Virus record (IMG/VR): IMGVR_UViG_3300034374_000896
Span: 1-43,013 of that record
Reading direction: 5' to 3' (one strand)
Origin: a virus
Length of the DNA stretch: 43,013 nucleotides
The position numbers were made by a program, and so were the translations under genes. Shown one piece after another: positions 297-37,533 of this stretch (positions within the stretch are counted from its first letter, which is position 1; the number at the start of each line of letters is the position of its first letter). The notes under the pieces are model-generated. The model was not told the DNA's origin. It saw nothing but the letters and a program-made list of their open reading frames with translations, and made no database searches.

Positions 297-529
297 TATG
301 AACTCGTCTTCATTGGGCGCTCAGCTGGGTTAGATGCACCACAGTAGCCGCCTTTGTTGTAACCCTTCTTAGCAGTCATACCGCCTTTGGACATACCCAT
401 AGACATATAGTCTTTTTTCTTTTTAGCAGCCATACCACCATAAGCCATACCACTGGCTTTCTTAGCGCACTTACCTGCTGCAGTACACTGCGCTGGGGTA
501 GGACACCCTTTACACGGTTTAAACTTCAT
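296..529 (-). CDS. Small Cys/Lys/Gly/Met-rich protein (77 aa)
   Basis: I chose the ATG at 529, not the upstream in-frame start at 568, because an AGAGAG purine run precedes it and the protein then begins directly with a cysteine-rich segment (CKGC, then two more Cys by residue 20). The rest is low-complexity: KKASGMAYGGM, a lysine run, and repeated SMGMSKGGMTAKKGY units. The four early cysteines could bind metal. Its stop overlaps the next gene (TAATG). No function assigned. Confidence 0.6.
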   Translation of the reverse strand: MKFKPCKGCPTPAQCTAAGKCAKKASGMAYGGMAAKKKKDYMSMGMSKGGMTAKKGYNKGGYCGASNPAERPMKTSS

Positions 530-531
530 AG

Positions 532-831
532 CTATGTTCTCTCTCTTCCTGATGCTGTTGTTGACCAATTAACTTTAGATGGTCCTGTCTTTTTCTGTGC
601 CTCTTTTTTGGATATTTTTGAGGCAACTTTCTTCGGCCTACACGCTGGGTACGGTCTACTTGAGTCACTGGCTGAACTACGCCCACATTCTTTACCTGTC
701 TTAACGTCTGTCCATTCTTCACCAAACCACTTACCTAAGCCTCCTTGAGAAAAACTCCTACGCTGACTTTGTAATACGTGTTGGCTATTACGTGACCTTG
801 TTCTTGGTTGTGCCACTGTACTTGCCTCCAC
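532..831 (-). CDS. C-terminal half of a split DUF5872-like protein
   Basis: From about residue 30 this frame (GKWFGEEWTDVKTGKECGRS, then YPACRP and KVASKISKKEAQKKTGPSK) looks like the C-terminal part of a small basic protein found in many marine viruses (DUF5872-like, from memory). In such homologs it follows directly on an N-terminal part like the one encoded at 788-958. Here the two lie in different frames, offset by +1, and overlap by 44 bp. The first ~28 residues (MEASTVAQPRTRSR) are probably out-of-frame readthrough, not native sequence. Possible causes are a frameshift mutation, a sequencing error, or programmed +1 frameshifting. Confidence 0.5.
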   Translation of the reverse strand: MEASTVAQPRTRSRNSQHVLQSQRRSFSQGGLGKWFGEEWTDVKTGKECGRSSASDSSRPYPACRPKKVASKISKKEAQKKTGPSKVNWSTTASGRERT

Positions 832-958
832 GCTTCTTGTACTCTTTGGTTAACCACGCTGATGCATATGCGCTGGGCCACACATCAAACTTCTTTTTAG
901 CTTCTGCCTTTACTTGAGAGTATAACTTTTTGTTAGTTGGTGTTGGTGATTTACTCAT
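788..958 (-). CDS. N-terminal half of a split DUF5872-like protein (56 aa)
   Basis: The ATG at 958 opens a frame reading SKSPTPTNKKLYSQVKAEAK, then FDVWPSAYASAWLTKEYKKRGGKYS, and stops at 788-790. The segment WPSAYAS..LxKEYKxRGGKY is the typical N-terminal motif of small marine-phage proteins that normally continue into a GKWFxEEW..CGR segment, which is found here in the overlapping +1 frame at 532-831. One of the CCCAGCGC octamers (870-877) falls inside the conserved WPSAY codons. Below the usual ORF length cut-off because of the frame break. Confidence 0.55.
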   Translation of the reverse strand: MSKSPTPTNKKLYSQVKAEAKKKFDVWPSAYASAWLTKEYKKRGGKYSGTTKNKVT

Positions 959-959
959 A

Positions 960-1145
960 TTACGAACTCGTTCCTACTTCAAAACAGGCAGGTACAGCAT
1001 ACATACCTTTTTGTAACATACCTACAGCTACAGCTTCTGCTTCTTCTAAACAAGACTTCTCACTGTAGAACGCTTCTGGTTTAGCTATCACTTGACACGA
1101 TAACGCAGAAGGATCAAGACATATAAGCATTATTGCAACCCACAT
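960..1145 (-). CDS. Small secreted/membrane-anchored hypothetical protein (61 aa)
   Basis: The longer open frame extends upstream, but the ATG at 1145 lies just after the stop of the preceding gene (stop at 1147-1149), which makes it the natural start. The N-terminus MWVAIMLICLDPSALSCQVI is hydrophobic and could be a short signal or anchor. The remainder has three further cysteines (SCLEEAEAV, PACFEVG). The spacing suggests a disulphide-bonded periplasmic peptide. Position in the lysis block is the only functional hint. Confidence 0.5.
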   Translation of the reverse strand: MWVAIMLICLDPSALSCQVIAKPEAFYSEKSCLEEAEAVAVGMLQKGMYAVPACFEVGTSS

Positions 1146-1146
1146 A

Positions 1147-1431
1147 TCACCAAGCCTTACAAGACCAGTAACGTGCAGTAAACTTATCCGTTGCTGTATC
1201 ACAATTATGTCTAGCTCTGAAGCTAGCACGACGACCTGGTTGATCTTTCTTGATAGACATATTAGGATCACCGAAGCGTACAATCTTTACTTGGTCACCC
1301 TTCTTAGCTAGAACAGCTGACTTTTTAGCTTCACCAGGGGTGCGCTTAGGTTTATTGTACCCAGGGAAAGTCTCACCACGATACTTGAGCTTTCCGCTAG
1401 GTAAACGTTCTACGTCTTTAGTTGTAGCCAT
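1147..1431 (-). CDS. Conserved marine-phage basic protein (94 aa)
   Basis: A strongly basic protein (residues 10-50 rich in Lys/Gly/Pro: SGKLKYRGETFPGYNKPKRT) ending in RASFRARHNCDTATDKFTAR, then YWSCKAW. The terminal FRARHNCxxAxDK.TARYWSCKxW motif recurs in unnamed virion-neighbourhood proteins of marine phages, as I recall. It may bind DNA or metal. Its start lies inside the last codons of the spanin gene (14-bp overlap), indicating coupled translation. Confidence 0.65.
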   Translation of the reverse strand: MATTKDVERLPSGKLKYRGETFPGYNKPKRTPGEAKKSAVLAKKGDQVKIVRFGDPNMSIKKDQPGRRASFRARHNCDTATDKFTARYWSCKAW

Positions 1432-1783
1432 TCATCCGATCTTTCAGTGTTTTGCGTCTAAAGGGTGCTGTAATGAATCTATATATAGCCTTAGCCATCT
1501 GAGTAGGAGTAGGAAGTATCCAACCTAGTATAAGTACAAGTATTACCCACGGAGGTATATTCGTATTTATTATATCTAAGTTTTCCACTTTACCTGTTTC
1601 TACTTCTTTTGTTACTACGTCACGCCCAGCGCTAGTTTTATTTTCTACAGATAATACAGACTGTCTGTTCTCTTTGCCTATCTGAGCGTTTGAGTTTACT
1701 GTTGGACCTCCAGACCCACCAAGAAGACCTAGAGTACTCAAACCACAACCAGATAAGAAAAGAGCTAAGACTACCCATCTCAC
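1418..1783 (-). CDS. Probable unimolecular spanin (lipoprotein plus C-terminal membrane segment)
   Basis: The 121-residue product starts MRWVVLALFLSGCG: a lipoprotein signal with a lipobox ending at Cys13, placing the N-terminus in the outer membrane. A Gln/Asn/Thr-rich periplasmic stretch follows (residues ~25-75), then one hydrophobic segment (IPPWVILVLILGWILP, ~78-93) and a cationic cytosolic tail. Lipobox plus C-terminal transmembrane segment in one chain is the u-spanin architecture; the NAQIGKEN and IPPWVILxLILGW motifs match proteins named spanin2 in cyanophages, from memory. It lies directly downstream of the endolysin. Role: fusing inner and outer membranes in the last step of lysis. 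Confidence 0.65.
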   Translation of the reverse strand: MRWVVLALFLSGCGLSTLGLLGGSGGPTVNSNAQIGKENRQSVLSVENKTSAGRDVVTKEVETGKVENLDIINTNIPPWVILVLILGWILPTPTQMAKAIYRFITAPFRRKTLKDRMNGYN

Positions 1784-1789
1784 AATGTA

Positions 1790-2263
1790 CTATCCCATCA
1801 TCAATTCAAAATGTGGGGCATCTATGAAGGGACGACGACCTTGTGATCTACGTAGGTCAATGTAAGCGTTCATTGCATCCTCAGCTGTATCATCGTAGTA
1901 ACGAATGTCACCCTCTGACCAAGCTGCACCCCATTTGATAGGCACCTCTAGTTCTTCTGCTGCTTGAGCCATAGCGTCACAGATATTATCGTAAACATTG
2001 AGTTCCCAACTTACATTAGAACCAAAGTACGCTACAAGGTCTACAGCGTGGCTATAACCGTCACCCTGGATCAAGTGCTTACTTTTCATAGTCTGGCTAC
2101 GGCCTGACTCGTATAACTCTTTCTGTTCAGCTAAAGTTCTGACTCCATACGTCACACCGAAGTCTACATCAGTAAGCTCAATAGCTCGTTTAACTACAGC
2201 TACCATATCTGGATGTACACCATCTAGTTTATCTAACGAGCGCTGGGAAAGTCTAAATGCCAT
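1790..2263 (-). CDS. Endolysin, M15 family peptidase
   Basis: A 157-aa zinc peptidase of the M15 family (VanY / L-alanyl-D-glutamate peptidase type) that cuts peptidoglycan peptides at lysis. Zinc ligands are visible: His63 in SKHL, Asp75 in HAVDLVAY and His151 in DAPHFEL; the YGVRTLAEQ motif (39-47) is also typical. A few residues (IQGDGYS) are inserted between the first His and HAVD compared with the common SRHLTGHAVD arrangement. There is no signal peptide, so export would need a holin; the small membrane proteins upstream are candidates. Second gene of the lysis trio lipoprotein-endolysin-spanin. Confidence 0.85.
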   Translation of the reverse strand: MAFRLSQRSLDKLDGVHPDMVAVVKRAIELTDVDFGVTYGVRTLAEQKELYESGRSQTMKSKHLIQGDGYSHAVDLVAYFGSNVSWELNVYDNICDAMAQAAEELEVPIKWGAAWSEGDIRYYDDTAEDAMNAYIDLRRSQGRRPFIDAPHFELMMG

Positions 2264-2803: not shown

Positions 2804-3807
2804 TACCCCATAAGTCCTCTTACATTTGTATTTATACCACCATACTGACTAGGAGCCATCCCTGCTTTACGCTTAGGTTTAGATACTAAGGTGTTAGTAG
2901 GTATATTCTCTTCTGGGTCTACCTCTGGTTTTGGAGGCTTAGGAACGAAAGGTTGACGTATAGGATCAACAATCATCTGCGGCCCTCTGTTCGGTAAAGC
3001 AGGAATACCACCCTGACCACCTATGCCTTGACCAGAATGCTTTGCACCTGTAGTATCTGCAGGTTTGAAATCTACAAGCGGTCTTCCACCACCGCCTGTC
3101 ATTTTTACAAAATCCTCATAGTCAGTAGTACTTTTTCGATCTGGTACTTTTAAAATCTTCTCTTCTGGGTCTACTTCAGGCTTTACAGGTTTAGGAACAA
3201 AAGGCTGACGTATAGGGTCAACAACCATATTAGTATTAGTAGATGTAGGTACTGAAGGAGTAAAGCTTTCTGGAATCTTTTCTTCAGGGTCAACTTCAGG
3301 CTTAGGGGGTGGAGCAAGAATCTGAGGTGGTGCAGGTTGCAGTATTTCTTGCCGTTGCTGCAAGCTGTTTAAGGTCTTTATCCTTTGCTCTTCTTCCAAT
3401 CGCCTCTGTACTTGCTCCCCATAAAATGGTATTTGCTGTTGTAATTGTTGTTGCTGTTGTTGTACCTGCGAATACTGATTGGCTTGATTATTAAGACTTT
3501 GTAGCCTTTGTAAATCTGGAGCATATGTATTGTTGACATAGTTTTGTAGTTGTGCACTCAGATTTTGTATCTGTTGCATTAAACTAAGATAATTCTGATC
3601 AGAGTTTAGACGATTAAAGTAACTATTACTTGCTGTTCTATATAAATCTACAGGAGTTGGTGCTCTAACAGCAGGGTCAACTTCAGGTCTAGGTGGGGGA
3701 GCAGTAGATACAGGAGGGGCTATAGCAACAGAATCTAAGTTTCTAGCATTAGCTACCGTCTGTTGACGCATACCTTGAAAAGCTGTTCTGTCTGGTAGTG
3801 CTACCAT
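2803..3807 (-). CDS. Pro/Gln-rich repeat protein (334 aa)
   Basis: Low-complexity protein with four copies of a Pro-rich unit close to PPKPEVDPEEKI (about residues 37-48, 162-175, 208-219 and 293-305), and MxVDPIRQPFVPKP twice. A Gln-rich segment (YSQVQQQQQQLQQQ) at ~112-126 is probably coiled coil. It resembles extended, flexible structural or tail-associated proteins; no catalytic domain is visible. Coupled by TAATG to genes on both sides. Function unknown. Confidence 0.65.
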   Translation of the reverse strand: MVALPDRTAFQGMRQQTVANARNLDSVAIAPPVSTAPPPRPEVDPAVRAPTPVDLYRTASNSYFNRLNSDQNYLSLMQQIQNLSAQLQNYVNNTYAPDLQRLQSLNNQANQYSQVQQQQQQLQQQIPFYGEQVQRRLEEEQRIKTLNSLQQRQEILQPAPPQILAPPPKPEVDPEEKIPESFTPSVPTSTNTNMVVDPIRQPFVPKPVKPEVDPEEKILKVPDRKSTTDYEDFVKMTGGGGRPLVDFKPADTTGAKHSGQGIGGQGGIPALPNRGPQMIVDPIRQPFVPKPPKPEVDPEENIPTNTLVSKPKRKAGMAPSQYGGINTNVRGLMG

Positions 3808-5448: not shown

Positions 5449-5471
5449 TATTTTCGGACCGTCCGAAGATA
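5449..5471. repeat. Palindromic element, copy a
   Basis: A 23-bp unit, TAT-NN-TCGGAC / C / GTCCGA-NN-ATA, with core TTCGGACCGTCCGAA at 5453-5467. The arms are 11 bp around one central base. It lies in the early leader about 106 bp before the ATG at 5578. Confidence 0.8.
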
Positions 5472-8306: not shown

Positions 8307-8927
8307 ATGTATCAACGTGACTGTAACGCAATCGCTCAATACGCTATGGCATCAGCCGATGGATTGTATGACGTGATAGAGTTCACCCTATGCACAATCA
8401 ATATGCCACTCTCACGTGTCATACAGCAGCGTGTATCTATTAAAGCGGAGGGCATCCACAGCAAGTGGGTGTCCAGTACCAAGGCGCAAGGCATAGAGTA
8501 TGCCAAGGCTAACGCCCAGCGCTTGCACGAAAAGATCAACTCTATCGCTCAGCAGTATGGCAAGGACACTATTGACGGTGCTCAAGAGGCTGTCGATTTG
8601 TTTGTGTCTATTCCGTCTATCGGTATGGTCAAGGCGGGTTTCATTGCACAGATGTGCGGCTTTGAGGTGGCTTGTCTGGATCGCCACAACATTCGTATGC
8701 TCGGACGGTCCGAAGATAGCTTGCTGCTTAACAAGAAGGTCAAGCCTGAGCTACGCCGCCGCAAGATACGTGACTACGTTAAGCTGTGTAGACGCAGAGG
8801 TGCCGAGTACTGGTGGAACACGTGGTGTAACTACGTAGCTGACAAGGGTGGTATGAATAAGTCCTTGCCAACTGGTGATGCTGTGTCTAAGTATCACGTC
8901 ACTGCAATTATGGAGTTAGAACAATGA
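8307..8927 (+). CDS. Helix-hairpin-helix protein related to DNA glycosylases (206 aa)
   Basis: The ATG at 8307 follows GAGAGGAG. Residues ~98-130 read LFVSIPSIGMVKAGFIAQMC, then GFEVACLDRHNIRMLG. This is a helix-hairpin-helix (I-P-S-I-G-x-x-K-A) followed by an Asp-containing segment (CLDRHN), the order found in HhH-GPD glycosylases and EndoIII relatives. A base-excision or structure-specific DNA-binding role is likely but not proven; no Fe-S cysteine cluster is visible. Palindrome copy f is inserted right after this motif and encodes GRSEDS. The C-terminus is basic (LRRRKIRDYVKLCRRRG). It ends in the GGAGTTAGAACAATGA junction. Confidence 0.6.
   Translation: MYQRDCNAIAQYAMASADGLYDVIEFTLCTINMPLSRVIQQRVSIKAEGIHSKWVSSTKAQGIEYAKANAQRLHEKINSIAQQYGKDTIDGAQEAVDLFVSIPSIGMVKAGFIAQMCGFEVACLDRHNIRMLGRSEDSLLLNKKVKPELRRRKIRDYVKLCRRRGAEYWWNTWCNYVADKGGMNKSLPTGDAVSKYHVTAIMELEQ
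8696..8718. repeat. Palindromic element, copy f, inside the HhH gene
   Basis: TATGCTCGGAC / G / GTCCGAAGATA in opposite orientation to most copies (central G on the plus strand). It is in frame within the HhH gene and encodes YMLGRSEDS-like residues without breaking the reading frame. Confidence 0.8.
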
Positions 8928-9130
8928 AGACAGTTAAGATACGTTTAAATACTACGGTTGAATACGAGGTCACACGCCGTGTAGCAGACGATTGTACTGA
9001 TGATGAGCTTCGTAATATGGCAGATAATTTAGAGCGTGATGATTTGTATGATGAACCTGATGCCAAACAGATATGTTATTATACTGAATGGATTGGTTGG
9101 GATGTTGTACCAGAGGAGTTAGAACAATGA
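8924..9130 (+). CDS. Acidic small protein (68 aa)
   Basis: Starts at the ATGA overlap (8924) of the first GGAGTTAGAACAATGA junction. Product MKTVKIRLNTTVEYEVTRRV, then an acidic stretch (ADDCTDDELRNMADNLERDD) and EWIGWDVVPEELEQ. It ends with a second copy of the same junction. Unknown function. Confidence 0.55.
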   Translation: MKTVKIRLNTTVEYEVTRRVADDCTDDELRNMADNLERDDLYDEPDAKQICYYTEWIGWDVVPEELEQ

Positions 9131-16156: not shown

Positions 16157-18205
16157 GTGAGGACAGTATTAGACGTAGAAAACAATAGCCAGAAGATAGA
16201 AGGTAAGACTATACTTGATCCTTGGCAACCTGGTAACATACTTGTACAGGTAGGCACTCTCAATGTAGATAACACAGATGAGATGCACATCTTGAACTTC
16301 GATCACACTGAAGCTAAAGACACGACAGGTGGTGCAGCATTCGTGCTACAAGCAGTGCTTGATGAGACTACCTTGTTGATTATGCATAACGCACGTCACG
16401 ACTTGCCTTGGCTATGGGAGTCAGGCTTCAACTATGATGGCTTGATATACGACACACTGATTGGTGAGTACCTACTACTGCGTGGGGTCAAGCGAGGATT
16501 GGGTCTGGGTCATTGTGCTGAGGTGCGTAACTTACCATCGTATAAACTAGACACACTCAAGGAGTACTACAAGAAAGGGTACAACACAGATGAGATACCA
16601 CTGGCTGAACTGACAGAGTATCTTGTAGGTGACTTGAATGTGACACGTGAATTGTTCTTAGCACAGGAGCACGACTTCTCACAGCCAGAGAGTAAGTCAA
16701 TGATACGTGTACGTGACATCAGTATGAAGGTATGTATGACTCTGTGTCGTATGTATCAGCGTGGCTTCAAGGTAGATCGTAATGCACTAGAGCAAGTACG
16801 TGAAGAGTTCGAGCAAGAGAAGGTTGAACTAGAGACACGCATCAACGCTAAGGTACGTGACCTGATGGGAGACACGCCTATCAATATGTCATCCCCTGAG
16901 CAGAAGTCTCAAGTGATCTACAGTAAGAAGCCTAACAACAAGAAGGAATGGGCTGAACTATTTGAGCACGTCAACACAGTCGATGAGTATCGCTCTACTG
17001 TCAAGGCTAACTCTACTCACGTGATGAAGACTAAAGCTTACACGTGTCCTACGTGCAACGGCGCTGGGCATACATACAAAGTCAAGAAGGATGGCACCAA
17101 GTACGCTAGACCTAACAAGTGCAAGGACTGTGATGCACGTGGCTACAAACTAGAAGAGACCAACCAAGTAGCAGGTCTCAACTTCTTCCCGCCTAACAAG
17201 GACTGGGTTAGCGATAGTGGGTTCTCTACATCCAAGGGTAACCTTGATATACTTATCGCTACAGCTAGATCAAAAGGTATGCTAGAGGCTGAGGCTTTCC
17301 TAGCTGATCTACGTAGGTTAAACGCTATCACTAGCTACCTGAATAACTTTGTAGGTGGTATCAGTTTGTTCACTAAGCCTGACGATTTGCTGCACGTTGA
17401 TCTATCACAGACTACTGCAGCTACTGGACGGTTCAGTGGACGTAACCCTAATATGCAGAATATGCCAAGAGGCAACACGTTCCCAATCAAGAAGGTCTTC
17501 GTGTCTCGCTTCGATGGTGGCTACGTGATGGAGGCCGACTTTGCCCAGCTTGAATTTAGAACAGCAGCGTTCCTCGCACAGGACGAGACTGCAATGCAAG
17601 AGATCGCCACAGGGTTCGACGTGCACAGTTACACGGCGCAAGTTATCACTGATGCTGGTCAACCAACGACACGCCAAGAAGCTAAGGAGCACACCTTCGC
17701 ACCCCTCTTTGGCGCAACTGGTTATGGAAGACCCAAGGCTGTCGCAGCGTATTATGAACACTTCACAGAGAAGTACAAAGGCGTAGCTAAGTGGCACAAG
17801 AAGCTAGCCAAGGAAGCAGTTAACCTATTGAAGATTACTAACGTGAGTGGTAGGCAGTATGCTTTCCCTGACTGTAAGCGTAGAGAGAATGGCAGCGTGA
17901 CTCATATGACTAACATCAAGAACTATCCAGTGCAGGGCTTTGCTACTGGTGATGTGGTGCCAGTCGTACTGATGGAGATAGAGGAGAGGCTCAAGGGTTT
18001 GCAGTCCTGCTTAGTCAATACAGTACACGACTCAGCTGTAATAGATATTCACCCAGACGAGAAGGAGTATGTCATTGCTATGATAAATACATTGAACGAT
18101 GATCTCAATCGTATCATCGAAGAAGCTTACGGAGTAGAGATGAATGTGCCTCTATTATTAGAAGCAAAAATCGGTCCGAATTGGCTTGACACTAAGGACG
18201 TTTAG
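16157..18205 (+). CDS. polA: Family A DNA polymerase with DnaJ-like zinc-finger insert
   Basis: A 682-aa replicative polymerase starting with GTG at 16157 (AGAGGAG upstream). The 3'-5' exonuclease has DVE (Asp6, Glu8), HNARHDLPWL and VGDLNVTRELF. Polymerase motif A has Asp461 in EADFAQLEFR; motif B is R506-K510-F514 with Phe518 where Pol I and T7 have Tyr (LFGA instead of YG); motif C is His624-Asp625. In the thumb region lies a zinc finger: Cys297/Cys300 in CPTCNGAG and Cys322/Cys325 in CKDCDARG, the CxxCxGxG pattern of DnaJ. A DnaJ-like insert is the described hallmark of HMO-2011-type phages, as I recall, and is the main basis for my taxonomic call. Confidence 0.92.
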   Translation: MRTVLDVENNSQKIEGKTILDPWQPGNILVQVGTLNVDNTDEMHILNFDHTEAKDTTGGAAFVLQAVLDETTLLIMHNARHDLPWLWESGFNYDGLIYDTLIGEYLLLRGVKRGLGLGHCAEVRNLPSYKLDTLKEYYKKGYNTDEIPLAELTEYLVGDLNVTRELFLAQEHDFSQPESKSMIRVRDISMKVCMTLCRMYQRGFKVDRNALEQVREEFEQEKVELETRINAKVRDLMGDTPINMSSPEQKSQVIYSKKPNNKKEWAELFEHVNTVDEYRSTVKANSTHVMKTKAYTCPTCNGAGHTYKVKKDGTKYARPNKCKDCDARGYKLEETNQVAGLNFFPPNKDWVSDSGFSTSKGNLDILIATARSKGMLEAEAFLADLRRLNAITSYLNNFVGGISLFTKPDDLLHVDLSQTTAATGRFSGRNPNMQNMPRGNTFPIKKVFVSRFDGGYVMEADFAQLEFRTAAFLAQDETAMQEIATGFDVHSYTAQVITDAGQPTTRQEAKEHTFAPLFGATGYGRPKAVAAYYEHFTEKYKGVAKWHKKLAKEAVNLLKITNVSGRQYAFPDCKRRENGSVTHMTNIKNYPVQGFATGDVVPVVLMEIEERLKGLQSCLVNTVHDSAVIDIHPDEKEYVIAMINTLNDDLNRIIEEAYGVEMNVPLLLEAKIGPNWLDTKDV

Positions 18206-18254
18206 TGTTATAACTACGACTCTTTGAAACTGTGTAAATGTGAAAGGATACACA

Positions 18255-20882: not shown

Positions 20883-21259
20883 GTACGTTAAGTGATGGCG
20901 ACTTAGAAGCGTGGGAATATTATAGTGACGTGTACAGTAAGAAAGAGATGGGATTAAATGCATACCAAAAGGCAGCAGCCAAGACAGCCATTTACAAAGC
21001 CGAGCATTCTATCCTGTATCCTGCGCTGGGCTTGGCAGGTGAAGCAGGGGAAGTAGCAAACAAAGTAAAGAAGATGCTGCGTGATGGTGACTTTGATCGT
21101 CAAGCTATCTCAGCAGAGATCGGTGATGTGCTGTGGTATATTGCTGCACTATCACGAGACTTAAACATTAATATGCACGACTTAGCTATGAAGAATTTAG
21201 AGAAGCTCTACGGACGTAAAGCACGTGGCACACTACAAGGATCAGGAGACAAAAGATAA
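20879..21259 (+). CDS. mazG: MazG-like nucleotide pyrophosphohydrolase
   Basis: 126 aa with the MazG fold signature: GEAGEVANKVKKMLRDG (around 51-67, the ExxE part) and AEIGDVLWYIAAL (~81-93, the ExxD part). It hydrolyses NTPs or (p)ppGpp-like nucleotides; marine phages widely carry it to adjust host nucleotide or alarmone pools, though the physiological substrate is debated. Between nucleotide genes, ATGA overlap upstream and TAATG overlap with nrdJ. Confidence 0.85.
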   Translation: MSTLSDGDLEAWEYYSDVYSKKEMGLNAYQKAAAKTAIYKAEHSILYPALGLAGEAGEVANKVKKMLRDGDFDRQAISAEIGDVLWYIAALSRDLNINMHDLAMKNLEKLYGRKARGTLQGSGDKR

Positions 21260-23191: not shown

Positions 23192-23585
23192 TCTATTCAA
23201 TGAAAAAGTAGAAAATAAACCTAACATAGATGAAGCACATAAGTGCTGCAGCATATGTAATGAGGTAAAACCTGAACATAAGTTTCGCACTATCTACTTT
23301 AAAAAAGGCGGTTATCGTGTGTATGGCAATCAGTGTAAAAGCTGTATGAGCGAAATGGGTAAGCTTGTAAATACATTAAAGAAGCTACACCCTAAACCTA
23401 AAGACGGTAAGTGTCAGGCTTGTGGAGATATACCAGAAGTTCTATGCTTAGACCACGATCACGCTACAGGGAAGTTTAGGGGTTATGTATGCGAGGGATG
23501 CAATCACAGTATGGGTAAGTCTAATGATGACCCTGATAAGTTAATCAAGCAAGCGGAGTATCTACGTGAACGATCCAGTAAATAG
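23181..23585 (+). CDS. Recombination endonuclease VII-like nuclease
   Basis: 134 aa. Zinc-binding CCSICNEVKPEHKFR and CKSCMSEMGKL pairs, then CQACGDIPEVLCLDHDHATGK and RGYVCEGCNHSMG. This is the CxxC...LDHDHxTGxxRGxxCxxCN signature of T4 endonuclease VII (His-Me nuclease). It cuts Holliday junctions and mismatched or branched DNA. Two resolvases (this and endonuclease I) in one phage is notable. ATG at 23181 follows GTGGAGACAAG. Confidence 0.85.
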   Translation: MQLDLFNEKVENKPNIDEAHKCCSICNEVKPEHKFRTIYFKKGGYRVYGNQCKSCMSEMGKLVNTLKKLHPKPKDGKCQACGDIPEVLCLDHDHATGKFRGYVCEGCNHSMGKSNDDPDKLIKQAEYLRERSSK

Positions 23586-23793
23586 ACCAGTGCACTACAA
23601 CCAGAGTGGTATCGAATGCATTGACGCTATAGAAGCTATGACTGAGAATATGTCAGGCGCTATAGCACCACAGGCAGCTAACGTATTAAAGTATATGTGG
23701 CGATGCGAATACAAGAATGGCTTAGAGGACATCGACAAAGCTATCTGGTATCTCAATCGAATGCGAAAGCGCTGGGTAGAAACACACAAATAG
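23566..23793 (+). CDS. DUF3310 protein
   Basis: GTG start at 23566 with GCGGAG upstream. Product has the DUF3310 signature PVNRPVHYNQSGIECIDAIE, followed by the NVLKYMWRCEYKNGLEDIDK and AIWYLNRM segments. DUF3310 is a widespread phage family, sometimes called a nucleotide kinase-associated protein; function not established. A CCCAGCGC octamer lies in its last codons. Confidence 0.8.
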   Translation: MNDPVNRPVHYNQSGIECIDAIEAMTENMSGAIAPQAANVLKYMWRCEYKNGLEDIDKAIWYLNRMRKRWVETHK

Positions 23794-24099: not shown

Positions 24100-27000
24100 T
24101 TATTCATCCCTCTTTTCGTCCCTGAGTTCTTCCATCAACTCAACGTATCCTACAAAGAGTTGAAGCTGTGGTAGCTCTAGGTCTGTTAGTTCTTCCTCAT
24201 CTAGACCAAACTCTTTCTGGTATTCCTGTATGCGCCTCTTGTTAGCGTACTCCCCAGCGCCCAGCTTATATAGTAACAGACTACGTGTATCCTCTGGGTC
24301 AAAGCTGTTAGCTAAAATCTCCTTAACAAACTTCTTACTTGTATTGATAGTGTCGTAGATGTACTGTTTACGTTCTTCTGGTGTGCCTGACTTCCACTTA
24401 GGCTTTTCTAGTAGTAGAGCAAACTCATACTCTAAGATAGGTGATATGATACGGTTCATATCGTTACGTGCTTCAGGGATAGATGTACGTATGTTAGTCT
24501 TCCAATCAGCAATACCAGCCTCGTTGAATGCACGTTCAGCTGATGATGTTGCAGGAGAGAAGCGTACACCAAACACTTTACCAATAGGAACCTGATCAGC
24601 CTCTGTAGTAATAGCTTGATACTTTTTCTCAGGCTTAACGTAAGCTCCGATAGACTCCAGTAGTTCATCTGAGTAGCGTACAGATTTGTTTACCCACTCA
24701 GAGCCTTGCTTACGATCAGGTGCTACGTAAGCTTCACCTTTCATCATACTTGCAGTGAGGTTTACTGGATCAAGGAAACGTGTATAGCCTGATGCATACA
24801 TAGCTGTTGTGTTCTGTACAAGCTTGACTACGGCTTGACCATACTCAGGGTCTTCGGCGGTAACAGCATCAGAGATAATGTCATACATACCTTTCATATT
24901 GTCGTCTAGCTGACGAGTAAGGTTACCAGGTCCAAAGGTTACTACTACTTCATCAAACAATTCACGAGGTACTGTACCATCCTTCTCAATGTGAGCACCC
25001 ATACGTCCAATAGCTTTGTAGAATATATAAGGGAAGTCATACAGACGGTTACGGATAGACCCATCTGATGCACGTTCTTCATACCAAGCTAAGCCTGCAT
25101 CTAGGTTCTCTTTCTCAAACTGAGACAGTACACCGATAGAGCTAAGACCAATAGAGGTTTTAGTTAAAAGCTCCATAGGATCACGTGTTGTACCTGCCCA
25201 GTATTTGTGAGCTAAACTAATACCTGTATGATCCATCATATGAGCTAGAGTGTTGTTGAAGAACTGACCAAACGGAACCATAGCGCCAATGATAGGCTGA
25301 CGACTTAAGCTCTCAATAAACCCAGCGATTGTACCTACTGGTGTTTTAGAATCAGCATAGCTCTTAGAGAACACGTTACGTAGTGCATCTTGAGAAGCTG
25401 TACTTACAATCTCTGCATAGTCGTCCCCCATCATACGCTTCCACATATTAGGGTCATTCAAGAAGTCTACATAAGTCATATCGTACTTCAAGCGCATCTG
25501 CTTATCTATAGCGTACATAAACTCCTGAGATTTAGTAGCCATATCCTGCAGCTTAACACCATAGACTAGCTGAATCTTATCCATTATTTTGTCTAGCTTA
25601 CTACGGCTAATATCTTTAATGGCATCCTTACCCAGCGCATCCTTAGCTATCTCAGCGAACTCTTCTAGTTGTAGATCACGAGACATCTGCTCAATGTCTA
25701 CACCGCCAGCCATATAACGTAGCATATCTTTCTGTGCTGCAGGGTTAAACGCTAGGAAATCCATAAACGCTTCATACGTCATATTAGGGTCTAGCAAGTT
25801 ACGCATCTTGTCTTTCTGTAGGCTGAACATAAGCCCAGCTTTCTTAGCGAACTTAGCTGCACCTTCTTTGTTCAAGACAGCTGCGTTAATCACAGAGGCA
25901 CCACCATACAAAGTACCACGTACAATGTCAGCCATACTTTGCATTGTGCTAGCTGTCTGCCAACCAATCAAGTTAAGTGCAGTAGTACCAGGGTGTGTAA
26001 CAAGCATACGAATAAGGTTACGCTGCATATAGTCAGCACCCGACTTGATCTTGTTTACAGCTGCACGTGCTGGTGCTCCTGCTTCTACTTGGATAAACTC
26101 TTCGATAAGCTCGTCTGCATCAGCATCAGGTTTAAGTTCTTTTAGCTTAGTGAATACCTTAGATGCTTGGCTTGTAAAGTTCATAAGCTTAGCGCCATCA
26201 CTTACTTCACTAGCTACCATATCAAGCGCAGACTTTCCGTCCTCATTACCAAACAGCTTCTTGCCTTTGTATATCTCAACGTTAGCACCTAGTGTATCAT
26301 CATAGATGTCAGACAGCTGGTCCTTAACATTATCAGGCATAGCTTTCATAAGGTCAGACATCCAGTTAAGGAAGCCGTCTTGAGGACCACGCTTAGCCCA
26401 GTACTTAACACCGTTGTCAGCTAGTGCGTTAGACACCCCAGCAAAGAAAGCCTCTTGCCAAGCTAGCTCATCAGGTAGATAACCTTTGTCAGCTTCCATA
26501 CGAAGAGGCTCACCACGTGCAGCTTTGTCCTTTAGTGTCTCTACCATATCACGGAAGCCTGGGAGACTAGCTTCAAAGCCATTAACATCTAAGTCTTTAA
26601 TAGTCTGTGATGTATCCCCAGCAAGCTGACGCGCTCTAGCTAAGTGTTCCTGTGCTTGGAAGAACTTGATAGCACCAAGAGAGGACACATCAGCTTCATC
26701 CATCTGGAAGCCACGAGCAAAAGAATAACCTAAGCCCATACCCAGCGCACCACCTGCTAGGGCGATAGAGCCTTGCATCATATTGTAGCCATCTTGTAGA
26801 TCAACATCATCCATAATGTTCTGGTACACAGCGTCCATACCTACACCAGCTACAGCATCAACTACACCTACGCCTAGTGCTTCTCTACGAGCAATCTGAT
26901 TAGTGGTAATCTCTTTGCCTGCTGTCTTGAATGAACCTTCTTTGATGATCTTGTTAGCAGCTACACGTTCAAGCTGTTTAACTTGTGCACGAGCACCTTC

Positions 27001-27609
27001 AGTAATACCTTTACTCTTGATTACATTCTGTGCTTCTTTACGTACAGCATACTTAGCTGCCTGTGCTGCAGCTTTAGTTGCACCACCTGACACTAGCTTA
27101 CCTACGCCTAGACCTACAAGGTTAACTGGGTCTACAATAAGTGCACGTCCGTAGTCACCTACTGCATCTAGTTTTTCCCAAGCAGTTGTACCGTCAGCAA
27201 AGGCACCCTTCATAGAGTCAAACGTATCGTAAGCAGCACGTGCCTCAGCTAGTTGCTTAGCTTTCAGACGTTCATCATCTAAGCCTTTAACCTTGTTGAT
27301 GTACGCTAGTTCTTCTAGGGTAGTTACAGACTGACCAAAGTTAAACTTACGCATATGGTTAACATATGCATCAGCAATCTCTTGACGTGAGTAGTCGTCC
27401 TCATTCATACCAAAGTGAGAGTCCATATACCCAGCATAACGATTGAATACATCATCACGTGTAAGGTCACGCACACCTCTTGGAGTAAAGGCTCCTTCAG
27501 TCTGATCTTCTATGTTCGGACGGTCCGAAGATACAGGACTACCAAAGTAGCTGTCGTACTTGGACTCTGCCTGTACAGGTTGACCAAAGTAGCTATCATA
27601 TTTAGACAT
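24100..27609 (-). CDS. Very large internal virion protein (1169 aa)
   Basis: Last gene of the virion block, in the place of T7 gp16. Residues 1-36 hold a tandem repeat (SKYDSYFGQPVQAE, then SKYDSYFGSPVSS), directly followed by DRPN encoded by palindrome copy h. The body is mainly helical and Ala-rich (AKLVSGGATKAAAQAAKYAV near 170-195; a Gly/Ala hydrophobic stretch SIALAGGALGMGLGYSF near 275-291; LGSVT..-like helices). The hydrophobic segments are consistent with a core protein ejected into the host envelope during DNA delivery. No transglycosylase motif visible here; that lies in the gene at 31122. Confidence 0.7.
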   Translation of the reverse strand: MSKYDSYFGQPVQAESKYDSYFGSPVSSDRPNIEDQTEGAFTPRGVRDLTRDDVFNRYAGYMDSHFGMNEDDYSRQEIADAYVNHMRKFNFGQSVTTLEELAYINKVKGLDDERLKAKQLAEARAAYDTFDSMKGAFADGTTAWEKLDAVGDYGRALIVDPVNLVGLGVGKLVSGGATKAAAQAAKYAVRKEAQNVIKSKGITEGARAQVKQLERVAANKIIKEGSFKTAGKEITTNQIARREALGVGVVDAVAGVGMDAVYQNIMDDVDLQDGYNMMQGSIALAGGALGMGLGYSFARGFQMDEADVSSLGAIKFFQAQEHLARARQLAGDTSQTIKDLDVNGFEASLPGFRDMVETLKDKAARGEPLRMEADKGYLPDELAWQEAFFAGVSNALADNGVKYWAKRGPQDGFLNWMSDLMKAMPDNVKDQLSDIYDDTLGANVEIYKGKKLFGNEDGKSALDMVASEVSDGAKLMNFTSQASKVFTKLKELKPDADADELIEEFIQVEAGAPARAAVNKIKSGADYMQRNLIRMLVTHPGTTALNLIGWQTASTMQSMADIVRGTLYGGASVINAAVLNKEGAAKFAKKAGLMFSLQKDKMRNLLDPNMTYEAFMDFLAFNPAAQKDMLRYMAGGVDIEQMSRDLQLEEFAEIAKDALGKDAIKDISRSKLDKIMDKIQLVYGVKLQDMATKSQEFMYAIDKQMRLKYDMTYVDFLNDPNMWKRMMGDDYAEIVSTASQDALRNVFSKSYADSKTPVGTIAGFIESLSRQPIIGAMVPFGQFFNNTLAHMMDHTGISLAHKYWAGTTRDPMELLTKTSIGLSSIGVLSQFEKENLDAGLAWYEERASDGSIRNRLYDFPYIFYKAIGRMGAHIEKDGTVPRELFDEVVVTFGPGNLTRQLDDNMKGMYDIISDAVTAEDPEYGQAVVKLVQNTTAMYASGYTRFLDPVNLTASMMKGEAYVAPDRKQGSEWVNKSVRYSDELLESIGAYVKPEKKYQAITTEADQVPIGKVFGVRFSPATSSAERAFNEAGIADWKTNIRTSIPEARNDMNRIISPILEYEFALLLEKPKWKSGTPEERKQYIYDTINTSKKFVKEILANSFDPEDTRSLLLYKLGAGEYANKRRIQEYQKEFGLDEEELTDLELPQLQLFVGYVELMEELRDEKRDE
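27511..27533. repeat. Palindromic element, copy h, inside the internal virion gene
   Basis: TATGTTCGGAC / G / GTCCGAAGATA. The only copy outside the 5.4-10.9 kb early region and the only one in the virion block. Read on the minus strand it encodes VSSDRPN, in frame, at the end of a duplicated N-terminal peptide. Confidence 0.8.
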
Positions 27610-27620: not shown

Positions 27621-30524
27621 TTATCGTTTATTCAGTGCGTCACGTAAGTCGAATAGGGATTCTAGTAGTCTTCCTCTTGATGATGTTTTAGGTAGTTTAC
27701 GTGTAGCTTTAATCAAGCGTGTTACATCAGCAGCTGTTACTTTACCTGACGACACTTTGTTGTTGAAAGCTTCAGCAGCTTTAGATGAGCCGTGTACACG
27801 ATCAATCAAATCACCAAACTCAGCTTGTCCTAACTTAGGTGCAGCACCGCTACTTGGTGGTGACATTAATCCAGATGGTGTAGCTCTCTTGCCACGAGTA
27901 GTCATTTGTTCTACTACCATACTTGTAGGTAGAGTTGCATCAGGATCAGTACGAGTATCACCTAGTGGTGCTCTTGTTCTAGTCTGTGCATCAGGTTCAT
28001 TCTCAGCAGCTAAGAACGATAGACTTGGAGAGTCCTCAACATTAACAGAGTCTCTCTCTAGTATACCACGTCCACGTCTTGCTTCTGCTTTTCTAAATGC
28101 CTCTGCGTTCTTACCTCTAACGAAGTCTATGGCTGGATTAACTAAATCGTCTAGTTTTTCAACAAGAGTTTTACCACTAATAGGACCACGATATAGTTCT
28201 TGTGTCTCAGTGTCTATTAGCTGCTCTAGCTCTAGTATAGTCTTTAAGTTTTCAATATCTTCTCGTGAAGGTGTAGCCCCCATCAAATCCATCTTTTGTA
28301 CATAGCCAGCCATAGCATTATCAATTTCTAGCTCTTGTACTTGCTCAACTACTTTCTTAGCTTTTCTTTTAGGTACATTAGTACGATCTGAGATTATCTC
28401 TTGTAGTCTCTTATAAGCAGGTGTATCAGATGCACGAGTAAATACATTTGCATATTCTTCTACATCCTCTTCCGTTTCTGATACAACACCTAAGCTCTCA
28501 ATAATTTTAAGCGTAGGATTGTCTTCATCAGCTGTAGTCAAAGACACATCAGATAAACTAAAGTCTTTTACTGCCGCTGTAAGTTTACGCCAAGCATCCG
28601 TAGCTTGAGAGCCTAGCTTCTCAATATGCTCTGGTGCTCTGTCAAGTGCAGCGTCTAAGTCAGAACCTTTAAAGGCTGCATCAACTTCTTTCTTCACACG
28701 ATCAAGTTGCTCTTGAGTGTATCCATCATCTATGTAAGATGAATCTGGATAAGGCTCATTTTGCCTGTCATACACTAACGTATCAAATAAAATATCATCT
28801 GTTCTAAGCAGTCTACCATTTTCATCTGCAGGCTGAGAAGTAGGAGTCCAACTTGAACGTTTAGGTATTTCACTGTTTTGTGGGATAGCACTGAGTACAA
28901 ACTCTACTGCTTTATCTAGTGCTACTTGAGGATCATCTGTCTCTGAATAGTCTGGTACACCAAACTCATCTAACAAGTTGTTGATTGCAGGTATTAGACC
29001 TTCAGTAGTTTCTGCTCCGTCTTCAGACTTAACTGCCTGAGTATAGAAGAAGTCAGCCAGATCATTAGCCCCTACTGTTTGAGCAACACCACCAAGTATA
29101 GTGTTACCGTATGCGTTTGTAGTCATTGCACCTGAAGCAAACCCTTGATCTAAGCGCTGGGTAAAGCTAGATACGTTACTATCAACAGCGTCAATCACAC
29201 CTTGTGCTGCATCTCGCTTAGCTTGTACACGCTCTTCTACAGTAAGCTCTGGCTTAGGTTCAATTAATTCAGCTACACTTACACCAGAAGCATCAGCTAC
29301 ACCTTCAAGAGATGAGGTGTCTGTCATAGATGTATCTACTGGCTCGTAAGACGGAGGAGGAGTGAATGTAACGATAGGCCCATCACCGACCTTTACCCTA
29401 GCGTTAAGGGGAATAGTACCAGCTTCAACAGCTGCGTCACGATCCGCTACAGTTTCAAACTTTATTACGCCAGTGTCGGTAACAGTAGCATTTTTAGGAG
29501 GCTGTTTAACTTCAGTCGTTACAACAGGAGCCTGAGTTCCAGCTGTCTCAGTTGTACCTGCTGCTGCAGCTTCATCGTCTTTAATGTCACCTATTTGTGT
29601 AAGGTATGTAGTTTTAAATGAGTCAGTCAGTAGAGGGTTACGTGATACTGACCCAGCATAAAACTCATCAAACTGCTGTAGTGACGCTGCAAAAGACGAT
29701 CTATATAGTAGGTTATCTGACTCTAAGTATGTTTGCATAGCCTCAGAGTACTTATTGTTTTTTATTAGCTCGTCAATAGCATCTAATTTAAGTTTCATAG
29801 CTCCAAGGGTTTTAGCTGTCTCTGAACTCTGATTGTTAGCTGATTCTTGAAGGATATATGCCCTTTCTTGAGCTATAGATGACTCCAAGCTAGGCACCAT
29901 TTTCACGTTGATAAAGTCATTGTTCTGCTTGAAGGTAAAGGGTTTAGGTGGAAGCTTAACACCCATAGGCTTACCTGCCCCAGGTCCAGCACTACCCATA
30001 ATACGATAGATGTCTGAGCCTGTATAGCCATCAATGTACATATCATTTAGTACATCATCTTCCATCATAGAAGCGTCTAGCCCTAGCATAGCACCAAAGA
30101 TATTACGCTTACGTGCAACTGGGTCTTTCGTACTCTTGTATAGACCATAAGCACGTTTAACTACAGTTGATAGGTCTTCGTCTGGGTTATCATTTACAAA
30201 GTCTTTAGCTGAAGCTTCAATCTCTTTAATGTCTTTCTCTGTTAAGTCTGTACGCTTAGAGATTTGATCAGCAAACTCAACCATAGAACGCACACCGTTG
30301 TTGGCAGCGATGCTAGTTACATACTCTTTAGAGAAGCCTCGGTTCATAAGCGTATTAGCTACACCCAGCGCTGCATTAGCTTTATCTTCACGCTCCATTA
30401 CAGCACGAGTACCGTATGTCTGAATGTAGTCACGGCGTTTAGCTGCAGCATCACGGTAATACTTACGATCTTCTTCGATTAGTTGGGCTAGCGTAGTGCC
30501 GAACCCTGACATAAAACCTGCCAT
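27621..30524 (-). CDS. Large internal virion protein (967 aa)
   Basis: Located just upstream of the 1169-aa gene, comparable to T7 gp15. N-terminus MAGFMSGFGTTLAQLIEEDR followed by a long helical, acidic region; middle Thr/Ala/Val/Pro-rich section (GTTETAGTQAPVVTTEVKQP, ~320-350); C-terminal basic helical end (TRLIKATRKLPKTSSRGRLL). Probable component of the internal core that is injected with the DNA. Assignment by position, size and composition; no motif search possible. Confidence 0.65.
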   Translation of the reverse strand: MAGFMSGFGTTLAQLIEEDRKYYRDAAAKRRDYIQTYGTRAVMEREDKANAALGVANTLMNRGFSKEYVTSIAANNGVRSMVEFADQISKRTDLTEKDIKEIEASAKDFVNDNPDEDLSTVVKRAYGLYKSTKDPVARKRNIFGAMLGLDASMMEDDVLNDMYIDGYTGSDIYRIMGSAGPGAGKPMGVKLPPKPFTFKQNNDFINVKMVPSLESSIAQERAYILQESANNQSSETAKTLGAMKLKLDAIDELIKNNKYSEAMQTYLESDNLLYRSSFAASLQQFDEFYAGSVSRNPLLTDSFKTTYLTQIGDIKDDEAAAAGTTETAGTQAPVVTTEVKQPPKNATVTDTGVIKFETVADRDAAVEAGTIPLNARVKVGDGPIVTFTPPPSYEPVDTSMTDTSSLEGVADASGVSVAELIEPKPELTVEERVQAKRDAAQGVIDAVDSNVSSFTQRLDQGFASGAMTTNAYGNTILGGVAQTVGANDLADFFYTQAVKSEDGAETTEGLIPAINNLLDEFGVPDYSETDDPQVALDKAVEFVLSAIPQNSEIPKRSSWTPTSQPADENGRLLRTDDILFDTLVYDRQNEPYPDSSYIDDGYTQEQLDRVKKEVDAAFKGSDLDAALDRAPEHIEKLGSQATDAWRKLTAAVKDFSLSDVSLTTADEDNPTLKIIESLGVVSETEEDVEEYANVFTRASDTPAYKRLQEIISDRTNVPKRKAKKVVEQVQELEIDNAMAGYVQKMDLMGATPSREDIENLKTILELEQLIDTETQELYRGPISGKTLVEKLDDLVNPAIDFVRGKNAEAFRKAEARRGRGILERDSVNVEDSPSLSFLAAENEPDAQTRTRAPLGDTRTDPDATLPTSMVVEQMTTRGKRATPSGLMSPPSSGAAPKLGQAEFGDLIDRVHGSSKAAEAFNNKVSSGKVTAADVTRLIKATRKLPKTSSRGRLLESLFDLRDALNKR

Positions 30525-31121: not shown

Positions 31122-31961
31122 TTAGAATGCTTCTATGATAGCGTTATAATATTTGGTGCCCTTAGTACCGAAAGCATCTCTACCCTCTACGCCAGTGTTC
31201 AACCAGTCACGTGCACCTTTCCATCCTTGGTTGTGTGCGTATGCTAACACAGCTAGTTTTTCTTTTATTGGTAATGCTCTATACTTAGAAGAGTTCTGTG
31301 TTAGATAGCTATGGTTCTGCGCTGTGTAAGCTGCTACTGCTTCTTCTTGAAGCGCTGGGTCATTACGGAACTTTTGTCGTGATGCTTTATCGTGACCTAG
31401 ATCATAACCAAGTATCTTGCTAGCGTCTGCCTTAGCCATTTGACCCATCTGGTAGTAGCCATCGTAGTGATCGCCTGAGCCACCTACTTTATTGTAAGTA
31501 TTAGAAGACTCGATAAACCCAACCTTGTCTCTATAGATGTCCCACATCTCACCAGTGATGCCGATGTTTTCTTCTACTATACTTTTAGCTTTAGTTAAGG
31601 CATTTTTTAATTCAGGGGTTTTAGGTGTAGCTGGTCTTTCACCTGAGCTATAATCGTACTGTGTATCTGCAGAGTCTATCATACGTTGGGCCTGTTCGTC
31701 AACCCCATAATCGTAATCATCTAAGCGTGTTTCATCTACTGTAGATTTGAGGTAATCCATAGTAGCACGTTCATCACGCATAGTAGACAATAAGTCACCA
31801 ATATAGGTAGGCAAATCATAGTCAGGGTCTTCGCCTACTCCTAGACCTGGCCTTTGTTGAGCCATAAGACCTCTAGTTTTTGTAACTGATTGCTCTGACG
31901 TAGGCACACTAGTTGCTGCACCTACAATAACGTCTGCTAAACCAGGTTCATTGTTTGCCAT
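31122..31961 (-). CDS. Lytic transglycosylase/lysozyme-like virion protein (279 aa)
   Basis: The C-terminal half reads YRDKVGFIESSNTYNKVG, then GDHYDGYYQMGQMAKADASK and a helical lysozyme-like tail (LAVLAYAHNQGWKGARDWLN). Glu151 in FIESSNTY is the probable catalytic acid, and the Y-D-G-Y-Y-Q-M-G motif follows as in transglycosylase folds. The N-terminal ~120 residues are disordered and acidic. Probably opens peptidoglycan locally during DNA entry, the job T7 gp16's N-terminal domain performs. Confidence 0.7.
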   Translation of the reverse strand: MANNEPGLADVIVGAATSVPTSEQSVTKTRGLMAQQRPGLGVGEDPDYDLPTYIGDLLSTMRDERATMDYLKSTVDETRLDDYDYGVDEQAQRMIDSADTQYDYSSGERPATPKTPELKNALTKAKSIVEENIGITGEMWDIYRDKVGFIESSNTYNKVGGSGDHYDGYYQMGQMAKADASKILGYDLGHDKASRQKFRNDPALQEEAVAAYTAQNHSYLTQNSSKYRALPIKEKLAVLAYAHNQGWKGARDWLNTGVEGRDAFGTKGTKYYNAIIEAF

Positions 31962-36943: not shown

Positions 36944-36982
36944 TATATTATACCTTGTTCGCTTATAAGCAAGCTTACTGTG

Positions 36983-37237
36983 TTACTTATTCATTGTCAT
37001 CCATACCGCACCTGCAATAAACGTCAGGACTCCAACGGTAGCTAATTTTACTACTGTAGACCAGATAGACTTACGAGTGTCACGCCAAGCTTCCAACAAG
37101 CTACGCATCTCTGTAATATCTTTATGTGCGTCATCGTCTAGTAAGCCAATAGAACGCAGGGCTTCTTTAGCTCCACGTCTTGCTGCACGATCTAGCATAT
37201 CTTCTATTTCTTCTGGAGAAAGTTTGATGTCACTCAT
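36983..37237 (-). CDS. DUF6127-like membrane protein (84 aa)
   Basis: N-terminal amphipathic helix (IEDMLDRAARRGAKEALRSI), LGLLDDDAHKD-like turn, a charged segment (RSLLEAWRDTRKSIWSTVVK) and one C-terminal hydrophobic helix (LATVGVLTFIAGAVWMTM). The RGAKEALRSIGL...D..DI..(L)..LL.AWRD.R+..W pattern matches DUF6127 of alphaproteobacterial phages, from memory. A holin role has been suggested for such proteins by position, but here it lies among tail genes. Confidence 0.6.
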   Translation of the reverse strand: MSDIKLSPEEIEDMLDRAARRGAKEALRSIGLLDDDAHKDITEMRSLLEAWRDTRKSIWSTVVKLATVGVLTFIAGAVWMTMNK

Positions 37238-37269
37238 AGTTTAACTCATAAAGGCTTAAATAACAAGAA

Positions 37270-37533
37270 CTATTCAGGCTTAATAGGCCAAGTTATATTC
37301 TCTGGGAAGCCCTCTTGCGCTGGGACATCCCGTAGTGCTTGGCAGTAGTCAATCCATTCTTGTGAAACTGTTAAATCTGAACGGAAACGCCAGTCTGTTT
37401 CAGCTAAAAGGCTGTTTCGACGCTCACGAGCAAATTCAACGGCTGCTGCTGCTTGATCGTTAAGGAATTGCTCTAATTCAGCCCCTTCGATAGGAACCAA
37501 CGTATCCCCTATTTGCTTTAATAATTTCGCCAT
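37270..37533 (-). CDS. Tail fibre assembly chaperone-like protein (87 aa)
   Basis: The C-terminal half RRNSLLAETDWRFRSDLTVS, then WIDYCQALRDVPAQEGFPEN, is the phage tail assembly chaperone signature (R..LL.ETDW....D.....W..Y.QALRD......P...WP). Such proteins help fibre folding. A second copy of the domain is in the gene at 38383. Confidence 0.7.
   Translation of the reverse strand: MAKLLKQIGDTLVPIEGAELEQFLNDQAAAAVEFARERRNSLLAETDWRFRSDLTVSQEWIDYCQALRDVPAQEGFPENITWPIKPE

Follow-up and report, generated by a model that had tools for sequence, protein, structure and literature searches.

The element reported here is best set against two kinds of bacterial DNA word, the FtsK-orienting polar sequences (KOPS), whose consensus is GGGNAGGG, and Chi. 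In Escherichia coli, Chi has an observed-to-expected ratio (O/E) of 2.29 in the chromosome and a median O/E of 3.12 in phages; phages without RecBCD inhibitors over-represent the word, those with inhibitors lack it, and its density is 0.2 per kb in phages without a recombinase (consulted sections of PMC3784561). In Caulobacter crescentus the AddAB chi GCGGTGGT slowed degradation in vivo, and its authors, in the consulted part of PMC5443536, call it a likely chi. The consulted sections of a 2021 survey of Proteobacteria (PMC8022716) judged its own two alphaproteobacterial hits likely false, held that further Chi-like words very likely exist in Proteobacteria, and named Alphaproteobacteria as using another recombination complex. 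Our literature search encountered no Chi for marine Roseobacter AddAB. Here we describe an octamer, GCGCTGGG, in IMG/VR record IMGVR_UViG_3300034374_000896 (the window, meaning the whole stretch of 43,013 bases that was analysed), which belongs to an HMO-2011-type phage; background on this phage type was taken from the consulted part of PMC9038755. Among the papers listed, the search revealed no recognised link of GCGCTGGG to phages or to Chi, which does not show its absence from print, and the consulted part of PMC5993296 contains nothing on it. We give a probability of about one half to the reading that GCGCTGGG is a distributed Chi-like site, as an earlier note on this DNA had suggested, and that host AddAB is its most likely reader.

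The octamer in the window

The window carries genes for an integrase, a primase, a DnaB-like helicase, a DNA polymerase, a Cas4-like exonuclease, an endonuclease, MazG and a ribonucleotide reductase. In the stretch searched, the named phages closest to it are the Roseobacter phages CRP-2 and CRP-603, to which 72% of a 7.5-kb query aligns at ~71% DNA identity. Counting confirmed the 17 exact copies of GCGCTGGG given in the earlier note, 9 on the plus and 8 on the minus strand, the first at 490 and the last ending at 37324. The expectation, which the note had put well below one, was 0.45, 0.40 and 0.46 under Markov models of order 1, 2 and 3, and ranged from 0.40 to 0.52 across methods. None of 100 dinucleotide shuffles of the window reached 17 (mean 0.52, largest 4), and 11 words with identical dinucleotide content occurred 1.3 times on average and 3 times at most. 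The 24 one-mismatch variants summed to 11 copies against 13.1 expected; since they are not enriched, the word is exact. The flanks of the copies were random, and their spacing was like random placement, with an unremarkable spread of gaps. When synonymous codons were shuffled in the window genes of at least 100 amino acids (200 shuffles), 0.47 copies resulted (largest 3) against 13 observed there. Protein constraint thus cannot explain the copies, as the note had argued, and the selection for GCGCTGGG within genes exceeds what codon usage accounts for. It is a short, exact, non-palindromic word acting at the DNA level, and in this it has the form of a Chi site.

Against a Markov background GCGCTGGG was the top octamer of the window by significance. 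The expectation that no other octamer would be equally enriched held in so far as GCGCTGGG ranks top; others are enriched too and have other explanations. CCACCGCC has 10 copies on one strand only, 8 of which fall at 39.0-39.7 kb; the CGGTCCGAA/GGACCGTCC words are parts of a 23-bp palindromic repeat. Two remarks on placement did not survive. The copies had been called densest at 21-31 kb; the best 10.4 kb holds 8 copies, which 43% of random placements reach. They had also been said to avoid the 4.5-5.5 kb region; an empty 1 kb is expected at the average of 0.4 copies per kb. The copies, all exact matches, are as follows (ORF, open reading frame).

490-497, plus strand: copy 1, antisense in ORF 296-568 (minus)
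870-877, plus strand: copy 2, outside any ORF of at least 70 amino acids
1625-1632, minus strand: copy 3, sense in ORF 1418-1783 (minus)
2240-2247, plus strand: copy 4, antisense in ORF 1790-2263 (minus)
8515-8522, minus strand: copy 5, antisense in ORF 8307-8927 (plus); common to phage G001
13822-13829, minus strand: copy 6, antisense in the DNA primase; common to G001
17061-17068, plus strand: copy 7, sense in the DNA polymerase
18505-18512, minus strand: copy 8, antisense in ORF 18240-19136 (plus), no family
21023-21030, plus strand: copy 9, sense in the MazG-like gene; common to G001
23769-23776, plus strand: copy 10, sense in ORF 23566-23793 (plus)
24253-24260, minus strand: copy 11, sense in ORF 24100-27609 (minus)
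25631-25638, minus strand: copy 12, sense in ORF 24100-27609 (minus)
26741-26748, minus strand: copy 13, sense in ORF 24100-27609 (minus)
29154-29161, plus strand: copy 14, antisense in ORF 27621-30524 (minus)
30364-30371, minus strand: copy 15, sense in ORF 27621-30524 (minus)
31352-31359, plus strand: copy 16, antisense in ORF 31122-31961 (minus)
37317-37324, plus strand: copy 17, antisense in ORF 37270-37533 (minus)

For ORF 1418-1783 the better match is phrog_30566 (unknown) and the weaker one an Rz-like spanin. The product of 18240-19136, a conserved protein of ~298 amino acids encoded between the DNA polymerase and the Cas4-like exonuclease, is present in 15 of 15 HMO-type phages compared and had no match in Pfam or PHROG. 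Short palindromes are scarce throughout positions 1-43013: CATG is absent (~190 expected), as is CCGG (22 expected), and CGCG occurs 6 times against 35. Among near relatives, CATG numbers 0 in L001 (55 expected), 0 in L003 (87), 1 of 28 in L004 and 12 of 42 in L002, and HMO-2011 has no GATC. These deficits look like extreme restriction-site avoidance. The 23-bp palindrome, close to TATCTTCGGACSGTCCGAAGATA, lies at 5449, 6148, 6456, 6756, 7256, 8696, 10808 and 27511, seven of the eight places falling within 5.4-10.9 kb; these are perhaps putative repressor operators in an integrase-bearing phage.

Roseophage lineages with and without the word

In the whole records of 26 named phages, GCGCTGGG was found in CRP-603 (19 copies), CRP-2 (18), CRP-207 (11), ICBM3 (9), SIO1 and P12053L (8 each), CRP-4, CRP-235 and CRP-113 (7 each), CRP-3 and CRP-227 (6 each), CRP-804 (5), CRP-6, RDJL phi 1 and CRP-212 (4 each), CRP-13 (3), CRP-1, CRP-9 and ICBM2 (2 each), and CRP-5 and phiCB2047-B (1 each). 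It was absent from HMO-2011 (SAR116), CRP-345, EE36phi1, HTVC010P and HTVC008M; few copies are expected by chance in HMO-2011 and the two SAR11 phages. The window, CRP-2 and CRP-603 have 0.33-0.40 copies per kb, and GCGCTGGG is the rank-1 octamer also in CRP-2, CRP-603, SIO1, P12053L and CRP-4. Compared with matched words, it is not clearly enriched in CRP-3 (6, mean 4.9), CRP-804 (5, mean 4.0) and CRP-6 (4, mean 1.3), and enrichment is doubtful in CRP-235, where 7 copies stand against a matched-word mean of 2.3 and one control word reaches 8. The numbers for CRP-113, CRP-227, CRP-212, RDJL phi 1, ICBM2, EE36phi1, phiCB2047-B and the HTVC phages are raw counts without computed composition. Six further IMG/VR records contained 13 (G002), 12 (G001), 12 (G004), 9 (G006), 7 (G003) and 0 (G005) copies.

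Pooled IMG/VR loci gave a similar excess in several lineages; loci within a set are related and not independent, and the expectations understate chance. The loci around relatives of the polymerase were the best 80 of those listed, and 69 of them were pooled as roseophage-like. These HMO-2011-type loci held 222 copies against 6.8 expected (rank 1), with the word in 63 of the 69, and the remaining 11 loci, all of low G+C content, held 0 against 0.5. The split was made post hoc, the 11 being set apart for low G+C together with zero counts; the 69 still include low-G+C loci that have copies (L055, L061, L063) and one that has none (L049). It matters little, as all 80 loci give 222 against ~7.3. 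The enrichment sought in HMO-2011-type relatives was therefore found in roseophage-like loci, with none in HMO-2011 itself. SIO1-like cobaviruses had 57 copies against 2.0 (32 of 64 loci, rank 3), and distant cobaviruses 4 against 0.2, all from one of nine loci. CRP-804-like loci had 23 against 3.9 at an identity of at least 72% and 3 against 1.2 at 59-62%; CRP-9-like loci at 67-77% had 22 against 2.0, in 16 of 52. The controls were at chance: 1 against 0.9 in CRP-9-like loci at 79% or more, and 19 against 17.6 in distant T7-like loci.

The places of the copies were compared among 12 motif-rich phages with 143 copies; G003, near-identical to G002, was excluded. Site groups, defined by comparing the peptides around each copy, numbered 96, and 66 of them had a single copy, 20 of which sit outside genes of at least 100 amino acids and hence are not comparable. 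Three of the 13 comparable copies of the window are common to another phage, in every case G001. Some sites are kept in homologous genes, such as a pair 333 bases apart in CRP-2, CRP-207, G001 and G002. Since the copies are mostly at different places between phages, their number, and not their place, seems to be selected, and the turnover has the pattern of a signal spread along the genome, in contrast to sites of local regulation.

Orientation to transcription, described earlier as mixed, is balanced in the window, with 8 copies sense, 8 antisense and 1 outside ORFs of at least 70 amino acids, and leans antisense over the 12 motif-rich phages, where 79 of 124 in-gene copies are antisense against 35% predicted by codon shuffling. 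Counted once per site group, 45 of 76 are antisense, which is above 35% (p = 3e-5) and not above one half (p = 0.14). Plus copies tend to lie to the right of minus copies: in 14 phages, some of them unenriched, 217 of 335 pairs are so ordered (p = 0.01, uncorrected for kinship). By lineage the ordering is 164/251 in HMO-type phages (p = 0.02), 38/62 in cobaviruses (p = 0.17) and 15/19 in T7-like phages (p = 0.08); most of the records do not have established physical ends. Such an arrangement would guard both ends, to which the ordering points weakly. The antisense lean and the ordering fit a polar site without proving one.

A C follows GCGCTGGG as ninth base in 28 of 33 copies in CRP-207/G002/G006, 11 of 12 in G001 and 6 of 7 in CRP-4; it is far less fixed in CRP-2/CRP-603/G004 (18/49), SIO1/ICBM3/P12053L (10/25) and the window (6/17). 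The preceding base is never C in nine phages (0 of 110, 12.5 expected), and a few such C do occur in CRP-207 and IMG/VR loci. CGCG has an O/E of 0-0.17 in 9 of 11 phages checked, so the missing C is due to CGCG avoidance, and a preceding non-C was rejected as part of the motif.

Host chromosomes and candidate readers

In four Rhodobacterales genomes, from each of which 300-400 kb was sampled and which do not include the hosts of the phage isolates, GCGCTGGG occurred at ordinary frequency: 52 against 48.3 in Roseobacter MED193 (order-2 O/E 1.08), 30 against 31.2 in Planktomarina (0.96), 63 in Leisingera aquimarina against 48.8 at order 2 (1.29) and 71.9 at order 4 (0.88), and 27 against 20.0 in AG-319-F15 (1.35). 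Two dinucleotide-matched control words were counted along with it in 29 whole genomes, hand-picked from 80 loci of a 16S-probe scan. GCGCTGGG lay above both in 15 of the 29, where a third (~10) is expected, which is slight support for the Chi-like reading. In 24 of the 29 it occurs once every 4.5-15 kb by composition alone. It is strongly depleted in Pseudooceanicola spongiae (G007) and a Tateyamaria (G017), to ~0.2-0.3 of the two matched words; in these it is perhaps a restriction target. A class-wide survey of 289 genomes was not used as enrichment evidence, as its reversed-word control has other dinucleotides.

The host strand skew that had been suggested was strong in two genomes, weaker in a third and absent in the fourth. 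The leading-strand bias was 39:13 in MED193 and 23:7 in Planktomarina, and the pooled 62:20 put it first among 168 words of the same composition and tenth among 5584 octamers. With Leisingera added it was 106:39 (3 of 168; 13 of 10781). The MED193/Planktomarina list is headed by GGGCAGGG, which we take to fit the KOPS consensus. Strand bias from listings of genome places was dropped, since plus-strand places come first when matches are many (G275). All 16 alphaproteobacterial genomes tried, which do not include the isolates' hosts, have AddB (TIGR02786) at a score above the cut-off.

A reader encoded by the phages was also sought. The search turned up no protein family that every one of 11 motif-rich phages has and all 7 motif-poor phages lack; it missed an ICBM3 homologue found otherwise, and proteins under 45 amino acids and very divergent homologues would escape it. 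On trees of the Cas4-like protein, PolA, endonuclease I and thymidylate synthase, the motif label must be gained or lost 4 to 7 times. The phage's Cas4/AddB-like exonuclease, which the earlier note had taken as a pointer, is found in motif-rich and motif-poor phages alike and thus does not explain GCGCTGGG; as a reader it was rejected, being present in HMO-2011, CRP-1, CRP-345, CRP-9 and G005 (0-2 copies). Since no family found tracks the word, a host reader is likelier than a phage reader, although the reader may be a small or divergent phage protein.

The best correlate was a strongly acidic protein of ~80 amino acids, encoded between thymidylate synthase and helicase at 8725-8976 of CRP-2 (L089). 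It tracked GCGCTGGG among the named phages except CRP-13 (3 copies). It was rejected as the reader, as neither the window nor the motif-rich L001-L004 encode it and L076, which does, has no copy of the motif. It occurs in 19 phage records, all roseophages, has no Pfam or PHROG match, and is possibly a DNA mimic. A second small acidic protein, judged alike by eye, is encoded in CRP-9/CRP-13-like phages (L602, 2445-2669; CRP-13, 3578-3790). It was present in 0 of 3 loci with at least two motif copies and in 12 of 37 without the motif, and a putative nuclease inhibitor is conceivable. Motif-rich loci were too few (3 of 48) for an association between gene and motif within CRP-9-like loci.

The Chi-like reading, its rivals and known systems

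If host AddAB is the reader, a helicase-nuclease, most likely this one, would enter phage DNA at an end or a break. On meeting GCGCTGGG on the 3'-ended strand, it would stop double-strand digestion and RecA would be loaded; the phage DNA would be spared and joined by recombination rather than destroyed. Selection would have built the word into both strands of the phage genomes, roughly once in every 2.5-6 kb, since phages of ~43-47% G+C rarely have it by chance. A Chi-like role explains the exactness, the use of both strands, the spacing, the occurrence in several lineages, the patchy loss, and the match to six of eight letters of the Caulobacter chi. If this is true, a host word hidden in a chromosome richer in G+C may come to light in the G+C-poor genomes of phages, the survival of marine phages against an end-degrading host enzyme could be tested directly, and host recombination signals could be read in general from the octamers that different phages of one host keep.

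Several results weigh against this reading. The sampled Rhodobacterales chromosomes show no over-representation of GCGCTGGG, and in the 29 genomes it reaches at most ~1.75 times the mean of the two matched words, the highest being G027 with 820 against 415 and 524. The strand bias of Leisingera, a later test genome, is 44:19 and ranks only 22 of 168 and 170 of 6026; that of the fragmented AG-319-F15 is 15:12 (83 of 168). AddB is also present in two genomes with no GCGCTGGG (G037, G135). Caulobacter phage Cr30 has one GCGGTGGT against 0.23 expected in the first 50 of its 156 kb, which is no clear enrichment, and no GCGCTGGG there. The ninth base C is wanted by some phage groups and not by others. 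Phages isolated on one strain, FZCC0023, differ (CRP-2 18, CRP-4 7, CRP-113 7, CRP-13 3, CRP-1 2, CRP-9 2), so a Chi reading needs inhibitors or recombinases, and we identified none that accounts for the strong variation between phages. Of the ideas in the earlier note, the Chi-like one is the best, given the form of the word, its enrichment in several roseophage lineages, its absence from HMO-2011 and the two SAR11 phages tried, and the failure to find a reader encoded by the phages; it fell short on enrichment in candidate hosts, which the note had itself named as a refuting test. The missing over-representation is a real failure of a Chi hallmark, and we therefore do not file GCGCTGGG as Chi; as the strand bias is also uneven among the genomes, we propose that it works like Chi, not that it is Chi. 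A possible excuse is that G+C-richer hosts would already have the word often enough by composition.

The lack of host over-representation would suit another host DNA-binding or defence protein better than AddAB. Many sites would then benefit phages as decoy, immunity mark or genome organiser. The breadth and site turnover are the same as expected for Chi, and no phage reader was found; the match to the Caulobacter chi would be a coincidence, no fitting host factor was found here, and we know of none that fits a non-palindromic exact 8-mer over both strands. We regard this as a possible, clearly less probable explanation than a Chi-like site. A shade more doubtful is the reading that GCGCTGGG, instead of being the Chi of the chromosome, is a protection mark adopted convergently by several roseophage lineages. 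An undescribed nuclease or defence factor of the host would read it, and the mark would exist in two or more dialects (GCGCTGGG and GCGCTGGGC) that correspond to different lineages of hosts. That a replication, recombination or packaging factor encoded by motif-rich phages reads the word is improbable. It would fit the differences among phages of one host strain and a ninth base that varies by phage group, as expected if readers differ by phage; the family search, the trees and the distribution of the acidic protein speak against it.

A methyltransferase or restriction target, or a KOPS/FtsK-type orienting site, is very unlikely. Restriction targets should be avoided, as short restriction-like palindromes are in these phages, whereas GCGCTGGG is enriched. 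The strand bias in two host chromosomes, with GGGCAGGG heading the list, would suit an orienting site, which should be strand-polar within the replicon. The proposals of a methylation target, a packaging mark or a nucleoid site gained no support. It is scarcely credible that codon usage, repeats or shared ancestry produced the abundance as a side effect: some sites are indeed kept in homologous genes, but codon shuffling yields far too few copies, the flanks are random, neighbour words are unenriched, and the 143 copies spread over 96 site groups.

Among known systems, KOPS (GGGNAGGG) is likewise a G-rich octamer with a leading-strand bias, as GCGCTGGG has in two of the sampled chromosomes. 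It differs in that the phage copies of GCGCTGGG lie on both strands, in a 9:8 ratio in the window and likewise mixed in the majority of relatives, without the polarity within a replicon that marks KOPS, and there is no evident reason for phages to keep KOPS. From the E. coli RecBCD Chi GCTGGTGG of lambdoid, T5- and P1-like phages (PMC3784561, consulted sections), GCGCTGGG differs in its phage O/E of ~10-60 against a median of 3.12 and in the unenriched sampled host chromosomes against 2.29. It resembles that Chi as a non-palindromic G-rich octamer that some phages of a given host carry in excess and others lack. Two letters separate it from the Caulobacter AddAB chi GCGGTGGT, and GCGCTGGG is known here from sequence alone. 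The two agree in register in six of eight letters and would share an alphaproteobacterial AddAB, and a leading-strand bias of GCGCTGGG was seen in two of four Roseobacter-group genomes sampled and more weakly in a third.

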